Source of the DNA: an uncultured Blastocatellia bacterium
Lineage (GTDB): Bacteria; Acidobacteriota; Blastocatellia; Pyrinomonadales; Pyrinomonadaceae
Direction of reading: 5' to 3'
Length of the DNA: 61,909 nucleotides
NCBI GenBank assembly: GCA_946480785.1
Contig: CAMLLD010000036.1
Coordinates: forward strand, 1-61,909
Below the pieces are notes generated by a model, which saw nothing but the letters and a program-made list of their open reading frames with translations, was not told the DNA's origin and made no database searches. Positions 6,135 through 16,362 of this stretch are shown in pieces; position 1 is the stretch's first letter; the number at the start of each line of letters is the position of its first letter. The position numbers were made by a program, and so were the translations under genes.

Positions 6135-6192
6135 TTGACAGTTCCTCATCACATAGGCTAACTCTGTCCCGCGTTTATATATATAGGTAAGT
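6135..6192 (+). promoter_or_regulatory. Candidate promoter region of the C11/CHAT/sigma unit
   Basis: A consensus TTGACA at 6135-6140 is followed 17 bases later by a poor -10 (CTAACT) and about 33 bases later by an AT-rich TTTATATATATA tract. The untranslated stretch up to the ATG at 6304 is over 100 bases. No second ECF-type promoter copy was found to suggest autoregulation by the encoded sigma factor. Confidence 0.25.
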
Positions 6193-6303: not shown

Positions 6304-7938
6304 ATGGCAAAAAGGAATGCAGCATGGACAGTAATGGTTTACCTCGCGGGGGACAACAACCTGACCACCGAGTGCATGTTTGCGCTCACCGAAATGAAGC
6401 ACGCGGCGTTTGGAAAACATCTGAATGTCGTCGCGCAGTTTGACCCGCAGGACCCCGATCTTCCCACTCACCGCTATCACATCAGGAGGCGCGGCAAGAA
6501 AAAGAGCTTCCATCACGACATCATCGACCGCGCCTGCTACGTGAGTGACAACGGCGAAGTCGCGTTCAGAAACGAGAGTTTGAGAGCGCAGGCACTCGCC
6601 GTCGAGCGCAAACGCGAACGCCAACTTCGCCGCTCGGAACTGGACGAAGCGTGTCTGAGCGGTCCGCCCGCGAAAGAAGAAGTGATCATGGACGACACCG
6701 ACACCGGTTCGCCCATCACGCTCTATAACTTCATCACGTTCTGTCTGCAGGAGTATCCCGCCGATCACTACCTCGTCGTGCTTTCGGGACACGCCGGCGG
6801 CACCGAACGCGATTACCTGTTGAAAGACGAGAGCAGCTCGCGTTCGTTGACGTTCAATGAACTCAAAAATGTTTTTCGGCGTGTGAAGCAGGATCGCAAC
6901 GGCAAACTCATCGACATTCTCGGCATGGACAACTGCCTCATGAGCATGGCCGAGATCTGTTACGAGTTGCGCGGCGTTGCGGAGATCGTGGTCGGCTGCG
7001 AGAGTTTCAGTCCGGCGTCGGGTTGGCCGTATCGCGAAGTGCTCGAACGTCTGGCCCAGGATTTTGTGTCGCCAAACTTGCCGCCGGAACAATCAGTGGC
7101 CGAAGCCGCGGCGCGGGCGATCGTCCGGGAGTATGTCGATTACTACGCGAACTATTGGCTCGCGGGTCTGTCGGTGACGCAGTCGGCGTTGAGCGTGTGC
7201 AAGGTCGAAAGGCTGCGCGAAGAGATCGACAAGCTCGCGCAGTTGATGCAGCAGCAGTTGGTCGCGGAATGGCGCGAAAGTGGAGTCAACGCCGGCGAGC
7301 GGCCGTTTCACGATGCGTTGTTGCTGGCGCATTGGGAAGCGCAGTCATACAACGGCGAGCAGTTTATCGATCTGTTTGACTTTTGCGACCGCCTCGAAAC
7401 GCGTCTGGCCGACGGCGTGGTGGTTGAACAGTGCCGAGCGGTCAAAGAGTTTCTGAGTAATGATTTCGTTTTAACGTCATGTTATTCAGGGGCTGCTTAT
7501 CAATATTCCTACGGCGTGTCGCTCTACTTTCCGTGGTCGCACGTCGCGCCGAGCTATTGGAACCTCGACTTCGTGGAGGATGCGAACGGCAGCGGCTGGG
7601 GCAGTTTCCTTAAGAGTTACACGCTATTGACGCGGCGCGCGCCGCGCGGCCTCGACACCAACAGCAAACTGGCTAAGGCGTTGAACGGAACGATCGAGGA
7701 GCGGTTATTTGCGGTGCCCATGGCCACGGATTACATGGACGGCGAGCGGATGATCTCAGATCGCATGATCTCGGACCGGATGATTTCGGATCGCATGATC
7801 TCGGATCGCATGAACGCCGGCGTGGCGCGGAACTACATCCACAGCATGCGCAATCCGCCGAACGTCTTTTTCCCTGACGCGTGTCTGCGCAAGCGACGCG
7901 CGCATCTGGTCACACAGGAAATGCTGCGTTTGCGATGA
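6304..7938 (+). CDS. Clostripain-like caspase-fold cysteine peptidase (family C11)
   Basis: A 544-residue protein with a GGAGG ribosome site before its ATG and no signal peptide, so probably cytoplasmic. C11 peptidases share the caspase fold and usually cut after Arg or Lys, often after self-cleavage. The opening AWTVMVYLAGDNNL, the His motif VVLSGHAGG (His163) and the Cys motif ILGMDNCLMSMAE (Cys211) are the classic C11 dyad elements. Between them and the N-terminal strand lies a basic, poorly conserved-looking segment (about 60-130) that could be a processing loop. Near the C terminus (482-501) are four RMISD repeats from a 15-base tandem repeat. The stop codon overlaps the start of the CHAT gene (ATGA), implying translational coupling. 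Confidence 0.92.
   Translation: MAKRNAAWTVMVYLAGDNNLTTECMFALTEMKHAAFGKHLNVVAQFDPQDPDLPTHRYHIRRRGKKKSFHHDIIDRACYVSDNGEVAFRNESLRAQALAVERKRERQLRRSELDEACLSGPPAKEEVIMDDTDTGSPITLYNFITFCLQEYPADHYLVVLSGHAGGTERDYLLKDESSSRSLTFNELKNVFRRVKQDRNGKLIDILGMDNCLMSMAEICYELRGVAEIVVGCESFSPASGWPYREVLERLAQDFVSPNLPPEQSVAEAAARAIVREYVDYYANYWLAGLSVTQSALSVCKVERLREEIDKLAQLMQQQLVAEWRESGVNAGERPFHDALLLAHWEAQSYNGEQFIDLFDFCDRLETRLADGVVVEQCRAVKEFLSNDFVLTSCYSGAAYQYSYGVSLYFPWSHVAPSYWNLDFVEDANGSGWGSFLKSYTLLTRRAPRGLDTNSKLAKALNGTIEERLFAVPMATDYMDGERMISDRMISDRMISDRMISDRMNAGVARNYIHSMRNPPNVFFPDACLRKRRAHLVTQEMLRLR
7747..7806 (+). repeat. In-frame 15-base tandem repeat (RMISD x4)
   Basis: Four near-identical 15-base units encode RMISD four times inside the C11 peptidase, with a partial fifth (RM) after them. 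Units differ only at synonymous positions, showing selection to keep the peptide. Each unit offers an Arg, the residue C11 enzymes prefer to cut after. Slippage here would change protein length without breaking the frame. Confidence 0.85.
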
Positions 7939-10892
7939 GTTGCTTCAGACCCGCAAACATTGCGATTCAATTTTGCCTGCTGGCTTCTCTCCTGCTTGTC
8001 GTTACGACTGTGCGCGCCGCAGACGAGCGTGTCGTCAACGCGGAAAGTTTCGCCGCAGACGCCGATCGTTTGCGCGCCGAACAAACCGCAGAGGCAAATC
8101 TCAAAGCAGTCTCCAGCTATCGCGCCGCCGCTTACATGTGGATCGAGAAAGGAAAACTCGCGCCGGCCGCGACTGCTTTGCGCAACGCCGGTGAGATCCT
8201 GCAACTGCTCGGCAACAGCACGGAGGCTAAACGGAATTACGAAGAAGCGCTGTCGTTAACCAAACGCGCGAAAGATCAACTCGCAGCAGCGCATGTTCAC
8301 AACGATCTCGCTTATCTTTACTTCCTCACCGGCGATAACGATCAAGCCCGGCAACACTGCCAAACCGCACTCGCAATCGCGCAAAGTCTGCACGAGCGAA
8401 GCGTAGAAGCGGAGGCGTTGTACCTGCTCGGCGAAACGTTCTACAACACCGATCTCGCCAAAGCGACAGCGGTGCAACAACAGTCGCTCGCCATCTCGCG
8501 TGAGTTGAATCAACCACGCGGGCAGGCGCTCTCGCTCACCGCTCTCGCTTACTACTACTCAAACGCCGGTCAACGTGCGAACGCTTTCAATTCCTGTGAC
8601 GAGGCATTGTCGTTGGCACGTTCAGCAAAGGATCTCGGCGTCGAGACGCTCGCGCTGATCGCCACGGGCAACATCAAGCGAAAGTTTGGCGAAAAACAGG
8701 AAGCGCTGACTGGTTATCAGTCCGCCAACGTCCTGGCCGAACGCATTGGAGACAAGACCTCGCAAGCGATGGCGATCGGCGGTGTCAGCGCGGTGTCGCT
8801 GGAAATGAACGATCTGCAAACCGCGCTGGAATACTGCACGCGAGCTACCGCGCTGTTTGAAGCAAACGGGCAGAAGTGGGGCGTTGCCGAAGGCAAGATG
8901 AATCTCGGCACGATCTATCACGCACTCGGCGACGAACAAAAAGCACTCGAAAACCTCAACGACGGTCTCGCACGTTTCCGCACGCTCAAGTTGCAGCGGC
9001 TCGAGTCGATCACGTTGCGCGTAATCGGTCTGGTTTACGACGCGCAAGGCGATAGCCCGCGAGCGCTGAAATCGTTTCAACAAGCGCTCGCCCTAATCAA
9101 CCTCGAAACGGACCAGCGCGAGGCTGCTTACACAATCAACTGCATCGGTAAAGCTTACGAAACCCAGAACCAATTCGATCGTGCCGAGCACTACTATCGA
9201 CAAGCGTTGTCGCTGGCCCAACACTCGTCCGATCCGCAGAGCGAAATGCAGAGCTTCTACAACCTCGCTCATCTCGAACGCGGTCGCGGCAAACTAGACG
9301 AGGCGATTCGCGACATCAACTCGGCCATAAAGCTCGGCGAGACAGTGCGCACGAATGTTTCGAGTGAGGATCTGCGCACGAGTTACTTCGCCACCGTTCG
9401 CGACAGCTACGATCTCTATATCGACGTGCTGCTGCTCCAGCACAAACGCGAGCCGGCGGCGGGATTCGATCGCGAGGCATTTGCGGCCAGCGAAAAAGCT
9501 CGCGCGCGATCGTTGCTGGAAGGCATCAATCCGCTGCCGCAGACGCTCGGCCTCAAAGAAACACAACAACAGATACTCGACGAGGAAACAACGCTCGTCG
9601 AGTTTGCCCTCACGGACGAACGAAGCTACGCGTGGGCCATCACGCGAAACAGCGCTGCTGTTGTCGAGCTCGCTGGTCGTAAAGAGATCGAAGCATCAGT
9701 TAAACGCGTCTACGATCTGATCGCGGCCCATCAAATCATCCTCAATGAATCGGTTGAAGCACGCGCCGCGCGTGAAGCCAAAGCTGACGCCGCGATGCCG
9801 GCGGAAGTCGCGGTGCTGAGCAACTTGTTGCTTGTCCCACTCGCCGGGCGGCTCAACACGCCCCGCCTGCTCATCGTTGCTGACGGCGCGGTGCAGTACA
9901 TTCCGTTTCAAATCCTGCTCGATCCTGATTCGCACGCGTCACTAATCTCGCGCCACGAGATTGTCAACGAACCTTCCGCCTCGACGCTCGCTGTGTTGTT
10001 GTCGGAAATTGCTGCCCGCAAAACTGCGCCGAACTCAATCGCCGTGTTCGCCGATCCGGTGTTTGAAGCCGGCGATCCACGGCTTAACCGGAACGCGCCA
10101 AACGCGTTGGACCAGTCGTCGTCGGAGTTGTTCGCCGTGCGCCGCGCGCTTCGCGATGCGGGCGTCACGCCGGACGGGTTGCACGTTTCGCGGCTGCTCG
10201 CGTCGGGACGCGAAGCCGATGAAATCACCGCGCTCGCGCCGCAAAGCACGAGTTTGAAAGCCGTCGGCTTTGCCGCGAATCGAGAGCGCGTCTTCAGTTC
10301 GGAGCTGGCGAATTATCGTATCGTGCACATCGCGACGCACGGCATCATCAACAACGAACAGCCCGAGCTCTCGGGCATCGTCCTCTCCCTCCTCGACGAA
10401 CAAGGCCATCCCCAGAACGGCTTTCTGCAGCTGCGCGATATCTACAATTTGAAACTGCCCGCGGATCTCGTCGTGTTGAGCGCATGCAGCACCGCACTCG
10501 GCAAAGACGTGAAAGGTGAAGGATTGATCGGCCTCACGAGTGGATTCATGCACGCCGGCGCGGCTGGCGTCGTCGCTTCGCTGTGGAAAGTTGACGACGA
10601 AGCCACCGCGGAACTGATGAAGCACTTTTACACCGCATTATTCAAAAAAGGATTGCCGCCCGCCGCCGCGTTGCGATACGCGCAACTCGAGTTAGCGAAA
10701 TACCCACGCTGGCAGTCTCCATATTATTGGGCTGGCTTCGTAATTCAGGGTCAGTACGAACAGAAGGGGCAGTTCACCCAATCCTCGCTCAGCAACATTC
10801 AAATTGCGGTGTTTGCGGTTTTGGGCAGCTCACTCCTTGTCGCTCTCATTCTTTTTTTACAACGGAGACGCCGCGCCGCAAGTAATGCCTAG
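7935..10892 (+). CDS. TPR-CHAT caspase-fold protease, exported and C-terminally membrane-anchored
   Basis: From the ATG at 7935, overlapping the previous stop, the protein is 985 residues. It starts with a hydrophobic signal (about 10-28, ending VRA-ADE), followed by many tetratricopeptide repeats (about 60-480, e.g. AHVHNDLAYLYFLTGDNDQA) and a CHAT domain (about 600-930). The caspase-like dyad is intact: His802 in HIATHGIINN and Cys851 in VVLSACSTALG, followed by GLTSGFMHAGAAGVVASLW. A transmembrane helix near 955-975 is followed by four arginines, placing the very C terminus in the cytoplasm. If the N-terminal signal is cleaved, TPRs and protease would lie in the periplasm. TPRs usually bind partner or trigger proteins. 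Downstream are sigma and anti-sigma-like genes. Confidence 0.93.
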   Translation: MSCFRPANIAIQFCLLASLLLVVTTVRAADERVVNAESFAADADRLRAEQTAEANLKAVSSYRAAAYMWIEKGKLAPAATALRNAGEILQLLGNSTEAKRNYEEALSLTKRAKDQLAAAHVHNDLAYLYFLTGDNDQARQHCQTALAIAQSLHERSVEAEALYLLGETFYNTDLAKATAVQQQSLAISRELNQPRGQALSLTALAYYYSNAGQRANAFNSCDEALSLARSAKDLGVETLALIATGNIKRKFGEKQEALTGYQSANVLAERIGDKTSQAMAIGGVSAVSLEMNDLQTALEYCTRATALFEANGQKWGVAEGKMNLGTIYHALGDEQKALENLNDGLARFRTLKLQRLESITLRVIGLVYDAQGDSPRALKSFQQALALINLETDQREAAYTINCIGKAYETQNQFDRAEHYYRQALSLAQHSSDPQSEMQSFYNLAHLERGRGKLDEAIRDINSAIKLGETVRTNVSSEDLRTSYFATVRDSYDLYIDVLLLQHKREPAAGFDREAFAASEKARARSLLEGINPLPQTLGLKETQQQILDEETTLVEFALTDERSYAWAITRNSAAVVELAGRKEIEASVKRVYDLIAAHQIILNESVEARAAREAKADAAMPAEVAVLSNLLLVPLAGRLNTPRLLIVADGAVQYIPFQILLDPDSHASLISRHEIVNEPSASTLAVLLSEIAARKTAPNSIAVFADPVFEAGDPRLNRNAPNALDQSSSELFAVRRALRDAGVTPDGLHVSRLLASGREADEITALAPQSTSLKAVGFAANRERVFSSELANYRIVHIATHGIINNEQPELSGIVLSLLDEQGHPQNGFLQLRDIYNLKLPADLVVLSACSTALGKDVKGEGLIGLTSGFMHAGAAGVVASLWKVDDEATAELMKHFYTALFKKGLPPAAALRYAQLELAKYPRWQSPYYWAGFVIQGQYEQKGQFTQSSLSNIQIAVFAVLGSSLLVALILFLQRRRRAASNA

Positions 10893-11439
10893 TAACTGGG
10901 TCATGTCACAGGAAACGTTCGAAGCCCTGCTTGACTGGCTCGATCCAGACCGTGAACAAGCGGCAGTAAAGTACGAAGAGATCAGGACCAAGCTGATCAA
11001 GTTCTTTTCCGCGAGTTGTCAAAGCGACGCTGAGGCGCTGGCGGATGAGACCATCAACCGCGTTGCGCGCCGCTTGGATCAGGTTAAGGACCAGATTTAC
11101 GGTGAGCGCGCTCGTTATTTTTACGGCGTCGCGCGCAGGGTGCTACTCGAATACCGCAGAAGGAAACAGCCTCAGGCCGGGCCGGAGTTTGTCCTGGATT
11201 CAGAACGAGTCGAGATCGAATACAAGTGTTTGGAAGATTGCATGGCGAAACTGAGCGCGCAGCATCGCGAGTTGGTTCTGCTGTACTACGGCTCCGAAGG
11301 CCGCGAACGGATCGAGCAACGCAGACTGCTGGCGGAAAAGCTGGGAATCGCGCCGAATGCGCTTAGAATCCGGGCTTTTCGCATACGCGCCGAGCTACAG
11401 AAGTGTCTGAAGGAATGTGTGGACCGATCGTTAAGATGA
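10885..11439 (+). CDS. ECF-like RNA polymerase sigma factor
   Basis: A protein of 184 residues from the ATG at 10885, which overlaps the end of the CHAT gene by 8 bases; an ATG at 10903 (178 residues) is an alternative, and neither has a clear ribosome site. Region 2 is visible as SDAEALADETINRVARRL followed by ARYFYGVARRVLLEYRRR (core binding and -10 recognition). Region 4 has AKLSAQHRELVLLYYGSEG and a helix-turn-helix RRLLAEKLGIAPNALRIRAF (-35 recognition). The spacing and small size match extracytoplasmic-function-type sigma factors. The neighbouring membrane protein is the natural candidate for its anti-sigma factor, and the upstream proteases are candidate activators. Confidence 0.85.
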   Translation: MPSNWVMSQETFEALLDWLDPDREQAAVKYEEIRTKLIKFFSASCQSDAEALADETINRVARRLDQVKDQIYGERARYFYGVARRVLLEYRRRKQPQAGPEFVLDSERVEIEYKCLEDCMAKLSAQHRELVLLYYGSEGRERIEQRRLLAEKLGIAPNALRIRAFRIRAELQKCLKECVDRSLR

Positions 11440-11475
11440 AATACCCACGATCTTTTGGTCATGTAGATTAGGAGC

Positions 11476-11487
11476 GGCCTTCGGGCC
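11476..11487 (+). other. UUCG tetraloop hairpin between sigma and anti-sigma genes
   Basis: GGCC-TTCG-GGCC forms a small, very stable stem capped by a UUCG loop in the 65-base gap between the sigma stop and the next ATG. Outer bases (GAG/CTC-like) could extend it imperfectly. It may protect the mRNA or tune relative translation of the two genes. It lacks a U-tract, so it is not a terminator. Confidence 0.45.
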
Positions 11488-11504
11488 TCGCAGGTAGCAA
11501 ACTA

Positions 11505-12359
11505 ATGCGTAACATTGATGAGCAGGAGTTGAAAAGTTATCTGCTCGGCAGTTTAACGCCAGAGCGAAAAGCGGAAGTAGACGCGCTGCTACGTGACGAC
11601 GCGAACCTCCACGACGAACTTCTCGCGGTGGAGGCTGAACTTTTTGATCAATATGTTTGCGATCGGCTCACGGACCGCGAGAAAGAACTTTTTGAGTCGC
11701 ATGTGCTGACTGCCGCGGACGCCGATGACAAGCTGCGTTTCGCTGAGAACTTTGATCTTTTTACAACTACGCAGAAATTGGACGATGCCTCGGTATTCGC
11801 CTGCGCTCCCGCGCCCGGCGCTTTCGTTCCCACTTCTGCTCCGTTGTTTGCGACCTTTTATAGGAATCCTGCTTTTGCAGTTTTGGCGATCGTAGTCGCG
11901 GGTCTACTGGTCGCGCTGCTTGGCTGGTCGTTTCTAAGAAAGACCCCCGCAAATAACCTCGCACGGAAGTCTTCGCCGGTCGACGTGGAAATCGCGCTGA
12001 GTCCCGGATCGATGAGATCCGATGGTGGGATTCAGCACCTTCCCGCGCCGGCGAAGAACGTCCGGGTCAAGATCGAGTTGCAACTGGCTAAGTCAGACTT
12101 TCAGCATTACCGGACGCAGTTGTTCCGCGAGAACCAGGCGCTGGAGTCGCAGGAGGAGTTGAAGTCGGAACCGCGAAATGCTCACTACGTCGTGCCCGTG
12201 ACTGTGACGGGCGAGATCCTCACGCCCGGCGATTATCAATTCAAGCTGAGCGGCGTCGGTGACTCGGGCGCCGCGGCGTTTATTGACAGCTACTCGTTTC
12301 GGGTCACGCAGGACCAGGCCGGAGACTCCGAACCGGCGCGCGACCGGCTGGCGCGTTAA
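11505..12359 (+). CDS. Membrane-anchored putative anti-sigma factor
   Basis: A 284-residue protein. The N-terminal part (1-115) is acidic and helical (EQELKSYLLGSLTPERKAEV, then LTDREKELFESHVL), as in cytoplasmic sigma-binding domains, but the usual His/Cys zinc motif (HxxxCxxC) is absent. One transmembrane helix is at about 121-144 (FAVLAIVVAGLLVALLGW). The C-terminal part (about 160-275) is beta-rich and should lie in the periplasm, where the CHAT protease of the same gene run is predicted to be. The gene directly follows the sigma gene, and a strong terminator lies 135 bases downstream of the stop. The anti-sigma role is inferred from topology and neighbourhood, not from a diagnostic motif. 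Confidence 0.65.
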   Translation: MRNIDEQELKSYLLGSLTPERKAEVDALLRDDANLHDELLAVEAELFDQYVCDRLTDREKELFESHVLTAADADDKLRFAENFDLFTTTQKLDDASVFACAPAPGAFVPTSAPLFATFYRNPAFAVLAIVVAGLLVALLGWSFLRKTPANNLARKSSPVDVEIALSPGSMRSDGGIQHLPAPAKNVRVKIELQLAKSDFQHYRTQLFRENQALESQEELKSEPRNAHYVVPVTVTGEILTPGDYQFKLSGVGDSGAAAFIDSYSFRVTQDQAGDSEPARDRLAR

Positions 12360-12482: not shown

Positions 12483-12494
12483 CCCTCATGGAGA

Positions 12495-12540
12495 ACGGCG
12501 AGCGACTGAAGTGGTTGCAGTCGCTCGCCGTTTTTATTTT
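12495..12540 (+). terminator. Strong intrinsic terminator of the protease/sigma unit
   Basis: A perfect 14-bp stem (12495-12508 with 12518-12531, 9-base loop) is followed by TTTTTATTTT. It ends plus-strand transcription after the anti-sigma gene, 15 bases before the stop of the convergent ARPP-1 gene. Confidence 0.92.
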
Positions 12541-12554
12541 TTCAGGAAATCGGA

Positions 12555-13613
12555 CTATTGCTTACGGATGTAGTTGCGGTGGACCCAGGCGTCGTTCTGT
12601 CGCCGGTCCTGTGTCTCAAAAAACACGTTCTTGTCGTCCTCGCGCGTGACCACGCGCACGCGCTCGGTCACCGCTTTCGCTTGCGGCTTCGGCTTTTCCG
12701 ACGCGGCCAGAAACGCGTTAATCGTTTCATCCGCCACCGGCGCGGCCGATTCAACCCGCTCCCCCTGATTCATCTCCGCGAGCGCTTCCGTCGCCGTCGC
12801 TTTCAACAACTTCGGCCAAAGCTTCGCGAACAGCGCGTGCGACGCATAAACGTCCGCGCTATTCACTTGCCCGTTGATGGCGAACGCGTAACCGATCACA
12901 TCGGACTTGTTTCGCAAAATTCCGCTGAGCGCGTCGATATAAGCGGCGGTGTTCTCTTTCACCTTCGCGTTCTCGACTGACAACTCGTAGCTGGTACCGC
13001 TTACCGTCACGACAGCACTGACATTGCGGCTGAGCTTCGCCTGCGCGGCCGAAACATTTTCCCAAACCGCTTCCTGCGACTTAGCCGATTTCGCTGCGAG
13101 CTTGAGCTCACGCGTGGCCGCCACGTTGTCGGAACTGCTGAACCACGCCGACTGCTCGTCGCCTCGTCTCCTCCACCGTCCCGACTCGACACAAAACGCC
13201 GCGATCGGCATGCGACCGGATCGCGGCGGCACGATGAAGTCGATCGAGATCATCCGATCCTGATCGCCGCCGCGGACGATGTCGCCGGCCTGCACGTACA
13301 CATCCTGGTTCGAGAAGTTGCGGATGGCGAGTTCGTTGACGTCTTTCGTTTCATAAACCCTGACCTTCTTTTGGGCCAGCGCTTCCTGCAGCGTCAGGAA
13401 GTCTTTGCCCGGCAGGAGATCTTTTCCGTGGACCAGGAAGACGGTCAGGTTCTTGTGGGTGTAGGGACCGGAAATGCGATAGCCGGCGGGAAGGGATTTG
13501 TCATCCGGGCGATTGCTTGAGCTCCGTTGAGCGCGGGCGTTGATAAAGAGCCCGATGGGAAGACCGATTAACAGGCAGAAGACCGCGAGCGTAACCAGGT
13601 GCTTGTTCGTCAT
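12555..13613 (-). CDS. ARPP-1 (DUF6569-like) domain protein
   Basis: A 352-residue protein with an N-terminal hydrophobic signal or anchor (LVTLAVFCLLIGLPIGLFI, 6-24), so probably exported. The following region (about 45-330) matches my memory of the ARPP-1 domain: GPYTHKNLTVFLVHGKD, ELAIRNFSNQDVYVQAGDIV, GGDQDRMISIDFIVPPRSGR and PIAAFCVESGRW. That domain has been found near stress- and phosphatase-related genes but its biochemical role is unknown. The ATG at 13613 has a strong GAGGAG site 7 bases upstream. It stands alone, convergent with the sigma unit. The 212 bases upstream to the thymidine kinase stop hold no gene I can recognise. Confidence 0.7.
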   Translation of the reverse strand: MTNKHLVTLAVFCLLIGLPIGLFINARAQRSSSNRPDDKSLPAGYRISGPYTHKNLTVFLVHGKDLLPGKDFLTLQEALAQKKVRVYETKDVNELAIRNFSNQDVYVQAGDIVRGGDQDRMISIDFIVPPRSGRMPIAAFCVESGRWRRRGDEQSAWFSSSDNVAATRELKLAAKSAKSQEAVWENVSAAQAKLSRNVSAVVTVSGTSYELSVENAKVKENTAAYIDALSGILRNKSDVIGYAFAINGQVNSADVYASHALFAKLWPKLLKATATEALAEMNQGERVESAAPVADETINAFLAASEKPKPQAKAVTERVRVVTREDDKNVFFETQDRRQNDAWVHRNYIRKQ

Positions 13614-14453: not shown

Positions 14454-15032
14454 TTATGAATAAAACTTCGGATTATAAAACGGCGCAAACGCTGCGATTA
14501 ATGCGACTTCAAAACTCATCGAACGCGTCACGAGATCGCGCGACAACACACCCCACGCCCCTTGCTTGCTGCGCACGTCGCGTCCGCCACTGACTTCGTC
14601 GATCACCACGCCCAACTCACGCCTTCCCTGCACTACGCTTTTCACAATATCGGCCGGTACGGAAATCGACGGCGCGGCGCCGAATGCGCTGCGGTCGGCG
14701 CCGTCGGTCGCGTAGGCCCAGCCGCGCAGGAACGTGTGCCACTCACCGCCGATCGAGATCGAGTGAAAGCCGCCTTCGAGTCCGACGTAAATGTCCGCTT
14801 CGAGGCGCCGGCTGTGCAGTGAGTCGCGCACGGCGAGTGCTCGTTCGCGCGCGCCTTCCATCAACTGCCAGTCAGTGAGCGGCATGGCGGGCGCGTTGAT
14901 CTCGACGCGACGCGCGACGACATTAGCGTTAGTCCAGTCCGGATCGATCGTGGCGACGCGCGCGACACTCGCGCGCACAGCCATGATCTTGGCCGCACGA
15001 TCCGACCCGAGAGCGATTGTTTTAAGTGCCAT
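14454..15032 (-). CDS. Non-canonical purine NTPase (DUF84, YjjX-like)
   Basis: A 192-residue protein of the inosine/xanthosine triphosphatase family, which removes damaged purine nucleotides (ITP, XTP) from the pool. Recognisable parts are the N-terminal [27 protein letters not shown], the core [10 protein letters not shown] and [19 protein letters not shown] followed by [17 protein letters not shown]. It is the first gene of a pair with thymidine kinase, consistent with a nucleotide-pool role. No ribosome site is visible before the ATG at 15032. A divergent plus-strand promoter starts about 65 bases away. Confidence 0.88.
14472..14477 (-). promoter_or_regulatory. Consensus -10 box (TATAAT) upstream of thymidine kinase
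   Basis: Read on the minus strand, TATAAT lies 31 bases before the tdk ATG, inside the last codons of the DUF84 gene. The -35 region is weak. It could give tdk its own transcript. Confidence 0.3.
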
Positions 15033-15098
15033 GAAATGCGAGAGAGCCTATAACATACGGTTCGTGCTTCGTCAAAATGAGCTTCAATTTTGACCTGC

Positions 15099-15127
15099 TT
15101 GACTTTAGTTTTCGCGGTTGTTGTAAT
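15099..15127 (+). promoter_or_regulatory. Promoter of the DRE-TIM/M20 operon
   Basis: TTGACT (15099-15104) and TGTAAT (15122-15127) are separated by 17 bases. The expected start of transcription, near 15134, falls at the GGAGG ribosome site (15134-15138), giving a very short leader before the GTG at 15148. Confidence 0.55.
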
Positions 15128-15147
15128 CCTCGCGGAGGCTCGAAGGC

Positions 15148-16362
15148 GTGACCAGCGACGAATTAGTTTACGATTGGAACACGATCAACCCGTCGTTTTC
15201 GGCGCCCAATCGACACATCGGCATCAATGACGAAACACTGCGCGACGGGCTCCAGTCGCCGTCTGTTTGCGAACCTGAAGTCGAACAAAAACTCGAGCTC
15301 GTGCACTTGATGGAAGCGCTCGGCATGGACAGCGCCGACATCGGTTTACCAGGCGCGGGCGGCACGCACGCAGCCGGAGTCGAACGCATCGCGCGCGAAA
15401 TCGTCGAACAGAAACTCAAGCTCCGACCCAACTGCGCGGCACGCACACACCGCAACGACATCACGCCCGTCGCCGAGATCTCGCAACGCGTCGGTATTCC
15501 GATCGAAGTCTGCACGTTCATTGGTTCTTCGTCGGTGCGCTTCTTCGCCGAAGACTGGACGCTCGACAAGCTGTTGCAAATGACCGAAGAAGCGGTCTCG
15601 TTCGCGGTGTCGCAAGGCTTGCCGGTGATGTACGTCACCGAAGACACGACGCGCGCCAATCCGGAAACGATTCGCGCACTCTACACGACCGCGATTCGCG
15701 CGGGCGCAAAGGCAGTTTGCGTCTGCGACACGGTCGGTCATTCAACACCCGACGGCGCACGCGCTGTCGTCAGCTTCGTCAAGAAGATCATCGAAGAACA
15801 GGGCGGCAACATCCGGCTCGACTGGCACGGACACCAGGACCGGGGCTTGGGCGTAATCAATTCGCTCGCGGCGATTGAAGGTGGCGCCGATCAAGTGCAT
15901 GCCTCAGCGCTCGGCATCGGCGAGCGCGTCGGCAACACGCCGCTGGATCAATTGCTCGTCAACTTGAAACTATTAGGCTGGATCAAGAACGACCTCTCGC
16001 ACCTGCGCGAATACTGCGAAACCGCCGCGCGCATCTGTGGCTGGACCGTGCCGTACAACTATCCCGTCTTCGGCCGCGACGCGTTTCGCACCGCCACGGG
16101 CGTTCACGCGGCCGCAGTGATCAAGAGCTACCGGAAAGGCGATCAGCATCTGGCGGACATCATCTACTCGGGCGTACCGGCGGGTGAGTTTGGTTTGGAA
16201 CAGGTCATCGAGATTGGTCCAATGAGCGGCAAGTCAAACGTGATCTACTGGCTCGAGAAGCGCGGCATCGAAGCCGACGAAACTCGCGTCAATCGCATTT
16301 ACGAACGCGCCAAGTCTGCTCACGGCGTGCTCGAAGAACACGAAATCCTGGAATTGGTGTGA
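15148..16362 (+). CDS. DRE-TIM metallolyase family acyltransferase/lyase (isopropylmalate/homocitrate synthase-like)
   Basis: A 404-residue protein starting at a GTG with GGAGG 9 bases upstream. The family is clear: ETLRDGLQSPSV near residue 28, RPNCAARTHRNDI, CDTVGHSTPDGARAVV, and the metal-binding HGHQDRGLGV and ASALGIGERVGNTPLDQL. These enzymes condense an acyl-CoA with a 2-oxo acid or cleave the reverse. The C-terminal allosteric domain of standard LeuA is absent, and RDGLQ rather than RDGEQ is more usual in HMG-CoA lyase-like members. The acceptor is therefore uncertain: 2-isopropylmalate, homocitrate, citramalate or another product are possible. The next gene starts inside its stop codon. 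Confidence 0.8.
   Translation: MTSDELVYDWNTINPSFSAPNRHIGINDETLRDGLQSPSVCEPEVEQKLELVHLMEALGMDSADIGLPGAGGTHAAGVERIAREIVEQKLKLRPNCAARTHRNDITPVAEISQRVGIPIEVCTFIGSSSVRFFAEDWTLDKLLQMTEEAVSFAVSQGLPVMYVTEDTTRANPETIRALYTTAIRAGAKAVCVCDTVGHSTPDGARAVVSFVKKIIEEQGGNIRLDWHGHQDRGLGVINSLAAIEGGADQVHASALGIGERVGNTPLDQLLVNLKLLGWIKNDLSHLREYCETAARICGWTVPYNYPVFGRDAFRTATGVHAAAVIKSYRKGDQHLADIIYSGVPAGEFGLEQVIEIGPMSGKSNVIYWLEKRGIEADETRVNRIYERAKSAHGVLEEHEILELV

Follow-up and report, generated by a model that had tools for sequence, protein, structure and literature searches.

In regulated proteolysis of the RseA/RsiW type, a membrane anti-sigma factor holds an extracytoplasmic function (ECF) sigma factor, as it would in the model proposed here, and the protease that makes the first cut in RseA, DegS, is not a caspase-fold enzyme, unlike the proteases considered below. 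In the SAVED-CHAT cascade attributed to Steens (2024), a CHAT protease reportedly starts further proteolysis, again as in our model; that cascade is said to be CRISPR-linked and driven by a second messenger, unlike the locus described here. Type III-E CRISPR systems combine a tetratricopeptide repeat (TPR)-CHAT protease, Csx29, with the sigma inhibitor Csx30 and the sigma factor CASP-sigma; Csx29 there forms a complex with Cas7-11, and target RNA is its trigger (PMC10028731). The CalpL–CalpT–CalpS system likewise joins a protease, an anti-sigma factor and an ECF sigma factor in one unit, but its protease is a SAVED-Lon enzyme activated by cyclic oligoadenylate, and no caspase-fold enzyme is described for it (PMC11417357). 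Sigma factors of group ECF54, whose genes have CHAT-domain proteins encoded nearby, have been proposed to be under proteolytic control and are described as acting without an anti-sigma factor (PMC8999054). The caspase-fold proteases that we found described as sigma controllers in the open-licence literature are CRISPR-linked. Here we describe a unit of four genes, encoding a C11 (clostripain-family) peptidase, a TPR-CHAT protease, an ECF sigma factor and a membrane anti-sigma-like protein, on contig CAMLLD010000036.1 of an uncultured Blastocatellia bacterium (family Pyrinomonadaceae, Acidobacteriota), positions 1–61,909 of which are called the window. The source names of close protein relatives point to soil Acidobacteria of this kind. 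No description of this gene set was found in open-licence literature; subscription papers were beyond reach, and none of the searches was directed at the anti-sigma/CHAT fusion reported below.

Like the type III-E system, the unit contains a TPR-CHAT protease, a sigma inhibitor and a sigma factor, but its CHAT protein looks exported, its inhibitor spans the membrane and a C11 peptidase is added in some loci. The CHAT protease of type III-E Craspase would be cytoplasmic, as judged from its complex with Cas7-11; for the CHAT protein encoded here, the sequence of the termini argues against such a location. No CRISPR-like array was found in the 61.9-kb window, which agrees with the CRISPR independence proposed in an earlier, sequence-only reading of this DNA. 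Compared by gene context, the unit is like ECF54 in having CHAT beside a sigma gene, and differs in having a membrane anti-sigma factor, either separate or fused to CHAT.

We consider it moderately probable that the unit is a CRISPR-independent, envelope-facing proteolytic ECF switch, in which an exported TPR-CHAT protease acts on the membrane anti-sigma factor and so frees the sigma factor, with a cytoplasmic C11 peptidase as a helper in some loci. This reading is based directly on the linkage of the genes, their changed orders, the fused proteins, the domain composition, the preserved catalytic residues, the C-terminal tail of C11 and the selection acting on its repeats. At rest, to judge by its architecture, the single-pass anti-sigma factor would keep the sigma factor at the cytoplasmic face of the membrane. 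The TPR-CHAT protein would be exported and stay on the outer side, where its TPR region would take up a signal, and the activated CHAT domain would cut the outer part of the anti-sigma factor or, in the fused form, itself. The cytoplasmic piece left over would then be removed and the sigma factor freed. Least certain are the steps assigned to C11: where present, it might carry out or speed the removal of the cytoplasmic piece, and its tail, with the one-Arg/Lys repeats and a hydrophobic-[KR]-Asn motif, might be a restraint that it cuts itself. If this reading holds, soil Acidobacteria would use a chromosomal, often multi-copy caspase-fold sigma switch as ordinary envelope signalling, and CRISPR systems might have recruited such switches from a setting of this kind.

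Composition of the locus

The four genes lie on the forward strand in the order C11 (6304–7938), TPR-CHAT (7935–10892), sigma (10885–11439) and anti-sigma (11505–12359). The sequence ATGA at 7935–7938 contains both the stop codon of C11 and the start codon of CHAT, and the sigma gene begins with an ATG at 10885, which overlaps the end of CHAT by 8 bases and matches the aligned N termini of its relatives. A strong intrinsic terminator follows the last gene at 12491–12540 (arms 12491–12508 and 12518–12535 followed by a T run; −32.5 kcal/mol, z −7.7); a consensus terminator scan overlooked it. These features bear out the gene coupling and the single terminator of the sequence-only reading, and both catalytic dyads that it had called intact are conserved, as detailed below for each protease.

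The sigma factor is divergent. Its single sequence matched Pfam region 4 and NCBIfam ECF models, all below their cut-offs, and a profile of 19 relatives found solved ECF factors (RpoE 2q1z, E 2.3e-5, positions 14–166), a relationship over regions 2 and 4 that places it in the ECF family. Residues C119, C174 and C178 are invariant or nearly so in the 19 relatives, and a redox or metal role is possible for them. The anti-sigma-like protein has no Pfam match and weak NCBIfam anti-sigma matches. Its structure model (mean pLDDT 76, pTM 0.40) consists of a helical N-terminal domain (residues 6–96, 11520–11792), one membrane helix (residues 122–144, 11868–11936), which is also evident from hydrophobicity, and an outer beta domain (residues 161–268, 11985–12308). 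With an ECF gene adjoining, this is the architecture of a membrane anti-sigma factor. No relatives were found by sequence among solved structures, and a fold search gave generic beta-sandwich matches of low coverage. The N-terminal domain lacks the His/Cys motif of zinc-binding anti-sigma (ZAS) factors: across 24 sequences, H227, which lies in the outer domain, is the sole His or Cys at an invariant or nearly invariant position. A distant relative at locus L115 has a sub-threshold match to zf-HC2.

The TPR-CHAT protein has TPR matches and a CHAT domain in residues 627–940 (9813–10754; PF12770, E 2.1e-65). Its start looks like a signal peptide by eye (7935–8018), and its end has a hydrophobic helix detected with a hydrophobicity window (10785–10841) and an RRRR tail. 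Of 61 aligned rows, 53 contain the dyad H802/C851 and eight are fragments that stop short of the sites; the protein can be classed as a CHAT protease. By eye, a signal-peptide-like start is common to most of its relatives, and in many of them the C terminus consists of a membrane helix with a basic tail. Of 51 CHAT proteins, some of them cut by contig ends, 37 have an N-terminal segment and 22 a C-terminal helix by a simple hydrophobicity rule. From these termini the CHAT protein looks exported. Since the C11 peptidase has no evident signal peptide, the two proteases would act on opposite sides of the membrane. The earlier proposal of a protease-triggered switch is partly supported: the linkage of CHAT to the sigma pair (the sigma and anti-sigma genes), described below, agrees with it, and its topology changes, as CHAT would reach the outside of the anti-sigma factor, not the cytoplasm. 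Matches of the TPR part to AimR- or RNPP-type proteins were dismissed as general TPR cross-matches. Just downstream of the full unit at L115, a 518-aa protein (14486–16042) has a receiver-domain-like start, judged by eye, and a CHAT match.

CRISPR-linked CHAT proteases exert their effect via an inhibitor of a sigma factor or via a cascade of proteolysis (PMC10028731, PMC11229360), so that the unit, like Craspase or SAVED-CHAT, might serve defence or cell suicide in response to phage. In the CHAT protein, however, PADLOC matched only one weak PDC model besides a generic TPR one, and it found nothing in the other three unit proteins or, Cas7-11 included, in 10 neighbouring proteins. The missing CRISPR-like array and the exported look of CHAT also argue against a defence role, as do the flanking genes, which recur at loci L141 and L142 and partly at L001, unlike those of a mobile defence island. 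We regard this explanation as highly improbable.

Linkage and fusion of CHAT with the sigma pair

A profile scan of genome contigs with the C11 alignment yielded 45 loci. All four genes occurred together at 29 loci in three arrangements: 15 had the order C11–CHAT–sigma–anti-sigma, in 13 the C11–CHAT genes were convergent to the sigma pair, and in one the sigma pair came first. Linkage that outlasts such changes of order says more than linkage through one inherited operon. Within the class, C11 was found at E <= 1e-40 in at least 25 of 162 genomes, at 27 places. Of the 26 places examined, 20 had all four genes (with the anti-sigma gene cut by the contig end in two), three had C11 followed by CHAT or, at a contig end, by the first part of a secreted-looking TPR protein, and three lacked the rest of the unit.

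Linkage was also approached from the anti-sigma side. The anti-sigma profile matched 74 of 119 genomes of the family at E <= 0.001 and, in a phylum sample in which few candidates were scored per genome, at least 27 of 396 genomes at E <= 1e-9. The 40 highest-ranked loci of the match list, after omission of previously fetched places (many of them fetched for C11), were examined; the sample is therefore not random. CHAT was adjacent to the anti-sigma gene in 26 of them, fused to it in six and absent from two with enough context, and six lay at contig ends; CHAT was thus adjacent or fused in 32 of the 34 informative loci. In 12 genomes of 4.8–6.9 Mb, 6–24 CHAT genes were counted per genome, from which chance adjacency was calculated as about 3% at most, and the adjacency of CHAT therefore exceeds chance. 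In agreement with the sequence-only reading, the genes form a conserved unit. Two features of the material affect these comparisons: the set of 78 units includes loci selected through C11, and the home-made profiles were built partly from the same loci.

Sequence distances between the partners were correlated as well, most strongly for C11 and CHAT (r 0.78) and for CHAT and the anti-sigma factor (r 0.74; null maxima 0.30 and 0.29, respectively), followed by sigma and anti-sigma (0.60), C11 and anti-sigma (0.52), and CHAT and sigma (0.43). On the best reading, CHAT and the sigma pair form the core of the unit and C11 is an add-on. This revises the sequence-only reading: C11 is a member of the unit at the 29 full loci, but accompanies few of the loci chosen by their anti-sigma gene, and it may or may not be the initiator or amplifier proposed there.

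Ten fetched proteins are fusions in which TPR-CHAT directly follows the helical domain and membrane helix of the anti-sigma factor, and a sigma gene lies beside each. None of the 10 matches to the anti-sigma profile extends past position 156 of the 284-position model, so that the outer beta domain is unmatched in the fusions; in the L148 fusion the match begins only at position 52. When one fusion was used as the query, 289 proteins were found, and among the 120 matches listed most were similar in length. Proteins with CHAT attached lack the outer domain, which suggests that in the separate form this domain is the part that CHAT meets. Inhibitor and protease joined in one protein also suggest a caspase-like path of gene activation that would be free of CRISPR.

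The same fusions place TPR-CHAT where the outer domain would be, a position that would equally suit an envelope sensor or scaffold. CHAT might act on the anti-sigma factor in that capacity only, with its catalysis serving elsewhere and the sigma factor freed by site-1 and site-2 proteases; in line with this, no cleavage site was identified. Against it stands the dyad, which all aligned copies extending that far preserve (the 53 rows mentioned above), the four fusions in the dyad check among them. We consider the sensor explanation rather unlikely.

The C11 peptidase and its C-terminal tail

The C11 gene runs from an ATG at 6304 to the stop codon at 7938, and its product matches PF03415 (E 4.1e-36; 125.7 bits against a cut-off of 25.8). 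The dyad H163/C211 and the acidic S1-type residue D209 are all in place, which identifies it as a C11 peptidase. The dyad was kept in 191 of 191 aligned C11 proteins, and the residue two positions before the catalytic Cys was Asp in 178 and His in nine. The predicted structure (mean pLDDT 71, with tail residues 471–531 below 50) matches that of clostripain (9cip, E 3.5e-13). PmC11 cuts after Arg or Lys, is activated by self-cleavage and owes its specificity mainly to the Asp two residues before the Cys (PMC4850288). The C11 peptidase of the unit, which shares the dyad and this Asp with clostripain and PmC11, is by analogy expected to cut after Arg or Lys. It differs from them in that no signal peptide was seen and in its C-terminal tail, which contains repeats and a [KR]-Asn motif. 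In 26 of the 29 full units, at most 31 residues separate the earliest start codon from the caspase-fold core of C11, with putative longer reading frames upstream at L003, L137 and L138, and from this layout the enzyme looks cytoplasmic. The nine C11 proteins with His, whose specificity may differ, are those of L127, L134, L135, L137, L143, L144, L155, L159 and L164. In other phyla, C11 is directly followed by CHAT at L013, L019, L021, L026, L029, L032 and L038; no sigma gene was found there, and these C11 proteins have tails of at most nine residues.

In the 29 full units the protein continues past the C11 core for 22–208 residues, and for at least 57 in 28 of them. Among C11 proteins of other phyla (E < 1e-30, 30 measured, L016 being cut by its contig), the tail was at most nine residues in 28, the exceptions being L010 (21) and L023 (169); this set omits the more distant L035, L037, L040, L041, L043, L044 and L045, some of which are long and in which a tail could not be placed. 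Acidobacterial C11 proteins outside full units had tails of 71–186 residues in the seven measured (L002, L009/L133, L018/L118, L111, L117, L139 and L140), and L132 was the only one without a real tail (2 residues). Since these proteins are mostly tailed, the presence of a tail is confounded with phylum. At L139 (9050–12881) and L140 (8717–11388), a repeat-tailed C11 lies by a different ECF gene (TIGR02999; at L140 also PF07638) and adjoins a gene that looks kinase-like by eye; no CHAT gene was found there.

The tail in the window contains 4.4 copies of the pentapeptide RMISD (7747–7812), with one Arg per five residues, followed by the motif M-R-N at residues 515–517 (7846–7854), an instance of a hydrophobic-[KR]-Asn motif that is invariant in 26 of 26 sequences. 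In their last 110 residues, 28 of the 29 full-unit C11 proteins have hydrophobic-[KR]-Asn, against a mean of 8.7 for shuffled tails. As untailed L132 also has it there, the motif alone is not specific. Tandem repeats were detected in the tails of 136 of 188 C11 proteins, other phyla included, and in 18 of the 29 full units. Some C11 relatives carry the database name "pentapeptide MXKDX repeat protein"; TIGR02953 scores 19.6 bits on the C11 of the window, under its cut-off of 41.

The repeat unit is lineage-specific, yet it holds exactly one Arg or Lys in 808 of 822 units (two in 12, none in two). When similar units were grouped, 17 of 18 clusters had exactly one, against at most 41% expected (P 2.9e-6); this bound presumes independent positions, and the clusters are not fully independent of one another. 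At the level of arrays, six of 136 had two Arg/Lys per unit, four of them with doubled periods, and one array with masked letters, which gave none, was dropped. Codon differences between neighbouring units were compared in the 18 arrays that scored at least 10 and had DNA sequence: 244 of 280 were synonymous and 36 nonsynonymous, against 23% synonymous expected, and in the window all eight differences were synonymous. This excess indicates that the repeated peptide is under selection at the protein level, and plain DNA slippage was rejected as the explanation of the repeats.

Given the Arg/Lys cutting and self-cleavage of PmC11 and the Asp at the same position here, it is plausible by analogy that C11 processes its own tail. 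That an enzyme with expected Arg/Lys specificity bears arrays of units with exactly one Arg/Lys apiece, under protein-level selection yet varying by lineage, is an oddity that can be tested. One further idea is that the tail is a multi-copy peptide cassette: C11 would cut itself at each Arg/Lys and release copies of a lineage-specific peptide of 5–10 residues, which, once in the envelope, would act as ligand for the TPR region of exported CHAT; CHAT would then cut the anti-sigma factor, making a kin- or density-sensing circuit. We regard this as a long shot. The proposal that the repeats mimic a site in the partners encoded at the same locus was not supported, as the mean rank of the own partner was 0.538 for anti-sigma, 0.482 for sigma and 0.564 for CHAT (null 0.5, n 18).

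Loci without the proteases, and flanking signals

At what looks like the orthologous place in two genomes (L141 in G095 and L142 in G100), the sigma and anti-sigma genes are kept and C11 and CHAT are gone. The flanks of both resemble those of the window, with carbohydrate-kinase-like, uvrC-like and two lipoprotein-like genes upstream, judged by eye, and a relative of the ARPP-1 gene downstream. At L141 (9058–9620), the conserved block found upstream of the unit and about 30 codons of the start of C11 precede an intact sigma gene, so that one deletion seems to have taken both proteases together and left the sigma pair. There and at L142, the pair may have another mode of action or be permanently off or on. 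The sequence-only reading had held that homologous loci where the four genes part company would count against it; the gene set has stayed together at the 29 full loci, and at these two it has not, which in part counts against that reading.

The conserved upstream block has the form TTGACA-N13-TAGGCTAA (6135–6161, forward strand), with a −35 element of the housekeeping rather than the ECF type. Counterparts exist at L001 (spacer 13), L141 (spacer 12) and L142 (TAGGTGAC). TTGACA words are generally enriched upstream of the first genes of units and are the most enriched words there. Since the block looks like a housekeeping promoter, autoregulation of the unit through an ECF promoter is not supported.

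Besides these two loci and the promoter, several observations weigh against the proposed switch. No anti-sigma match was found in 45 of the 119 family genomes, and L168 and L188 lack CHAT despite enough context. C11 occurs in three of the 40 anti-sigma-chosen loci and in 25 of the 162 class genomes (a lower bound), and its distances correlate weakly with those of the sigma factor (r 0.23, null maximum 0.25, p 0.002). Shared ancestry, moreover, also yields linkage and co-divergence. The N-terminal hydrophobic segment, present in 37 of 51 CHAT proteins, is not universal, and nine C11 proteins have His in place of the S1 Asp. As to the tail, tailed C11 proteins also occur without CHAT and without the sigma pair of the unit (L117, L139 and L140), no clear repeat was found in 11 of the 29 full units, and the repeat unit resembles the partners of its own locus no more than those of other loci.

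The chief rival explanation reverses the order of events: the sigma pair would answer some other signal by way of another protease, and the sigma factor would turn on C11 and CHAT as output enzymes that remodel or kill the cell. Sigma regulons often take in neighbouring genes, L141 and L142 keep the pair without the proteases, and the C11–CHAT gene pairs of other phyla listed above stand where no sigma gene was found, all of which this explanation would accommodate. Against it, no ECF-like promoter was recognised upstream of C11, where the conserved block is based on TTGACA. The fusions also argue against it, because covalent joining of CHAT to the anti-sigma factor in the 10 fetched proteins, each with a sigma gene beside it, would be needless for an output enzyme. 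We give the output explanation an appreciable but minor chance and continue to prefer a switch in which CHAT acts upstream of the sigma factor.

Among the minor features, no Rfam element reached its gathering score within the unit. The leader of C11 (6264–6296, forward strand) contains a small hairpin and the Shine-Dalgarno sequence GGAGG and is similar at L001 and L141. The stem at L001 differs by one compensated pair; the folding is weak (z −1.3 and −1.2), and that of the window (z −1.3) is ordinary for its composition. Past the terminator, an ARPP-1 domain gene (PF20208, E 5e-61) lies convergent to the unit at 12555–13613, and similar genes are found downstream at L141 and L142.

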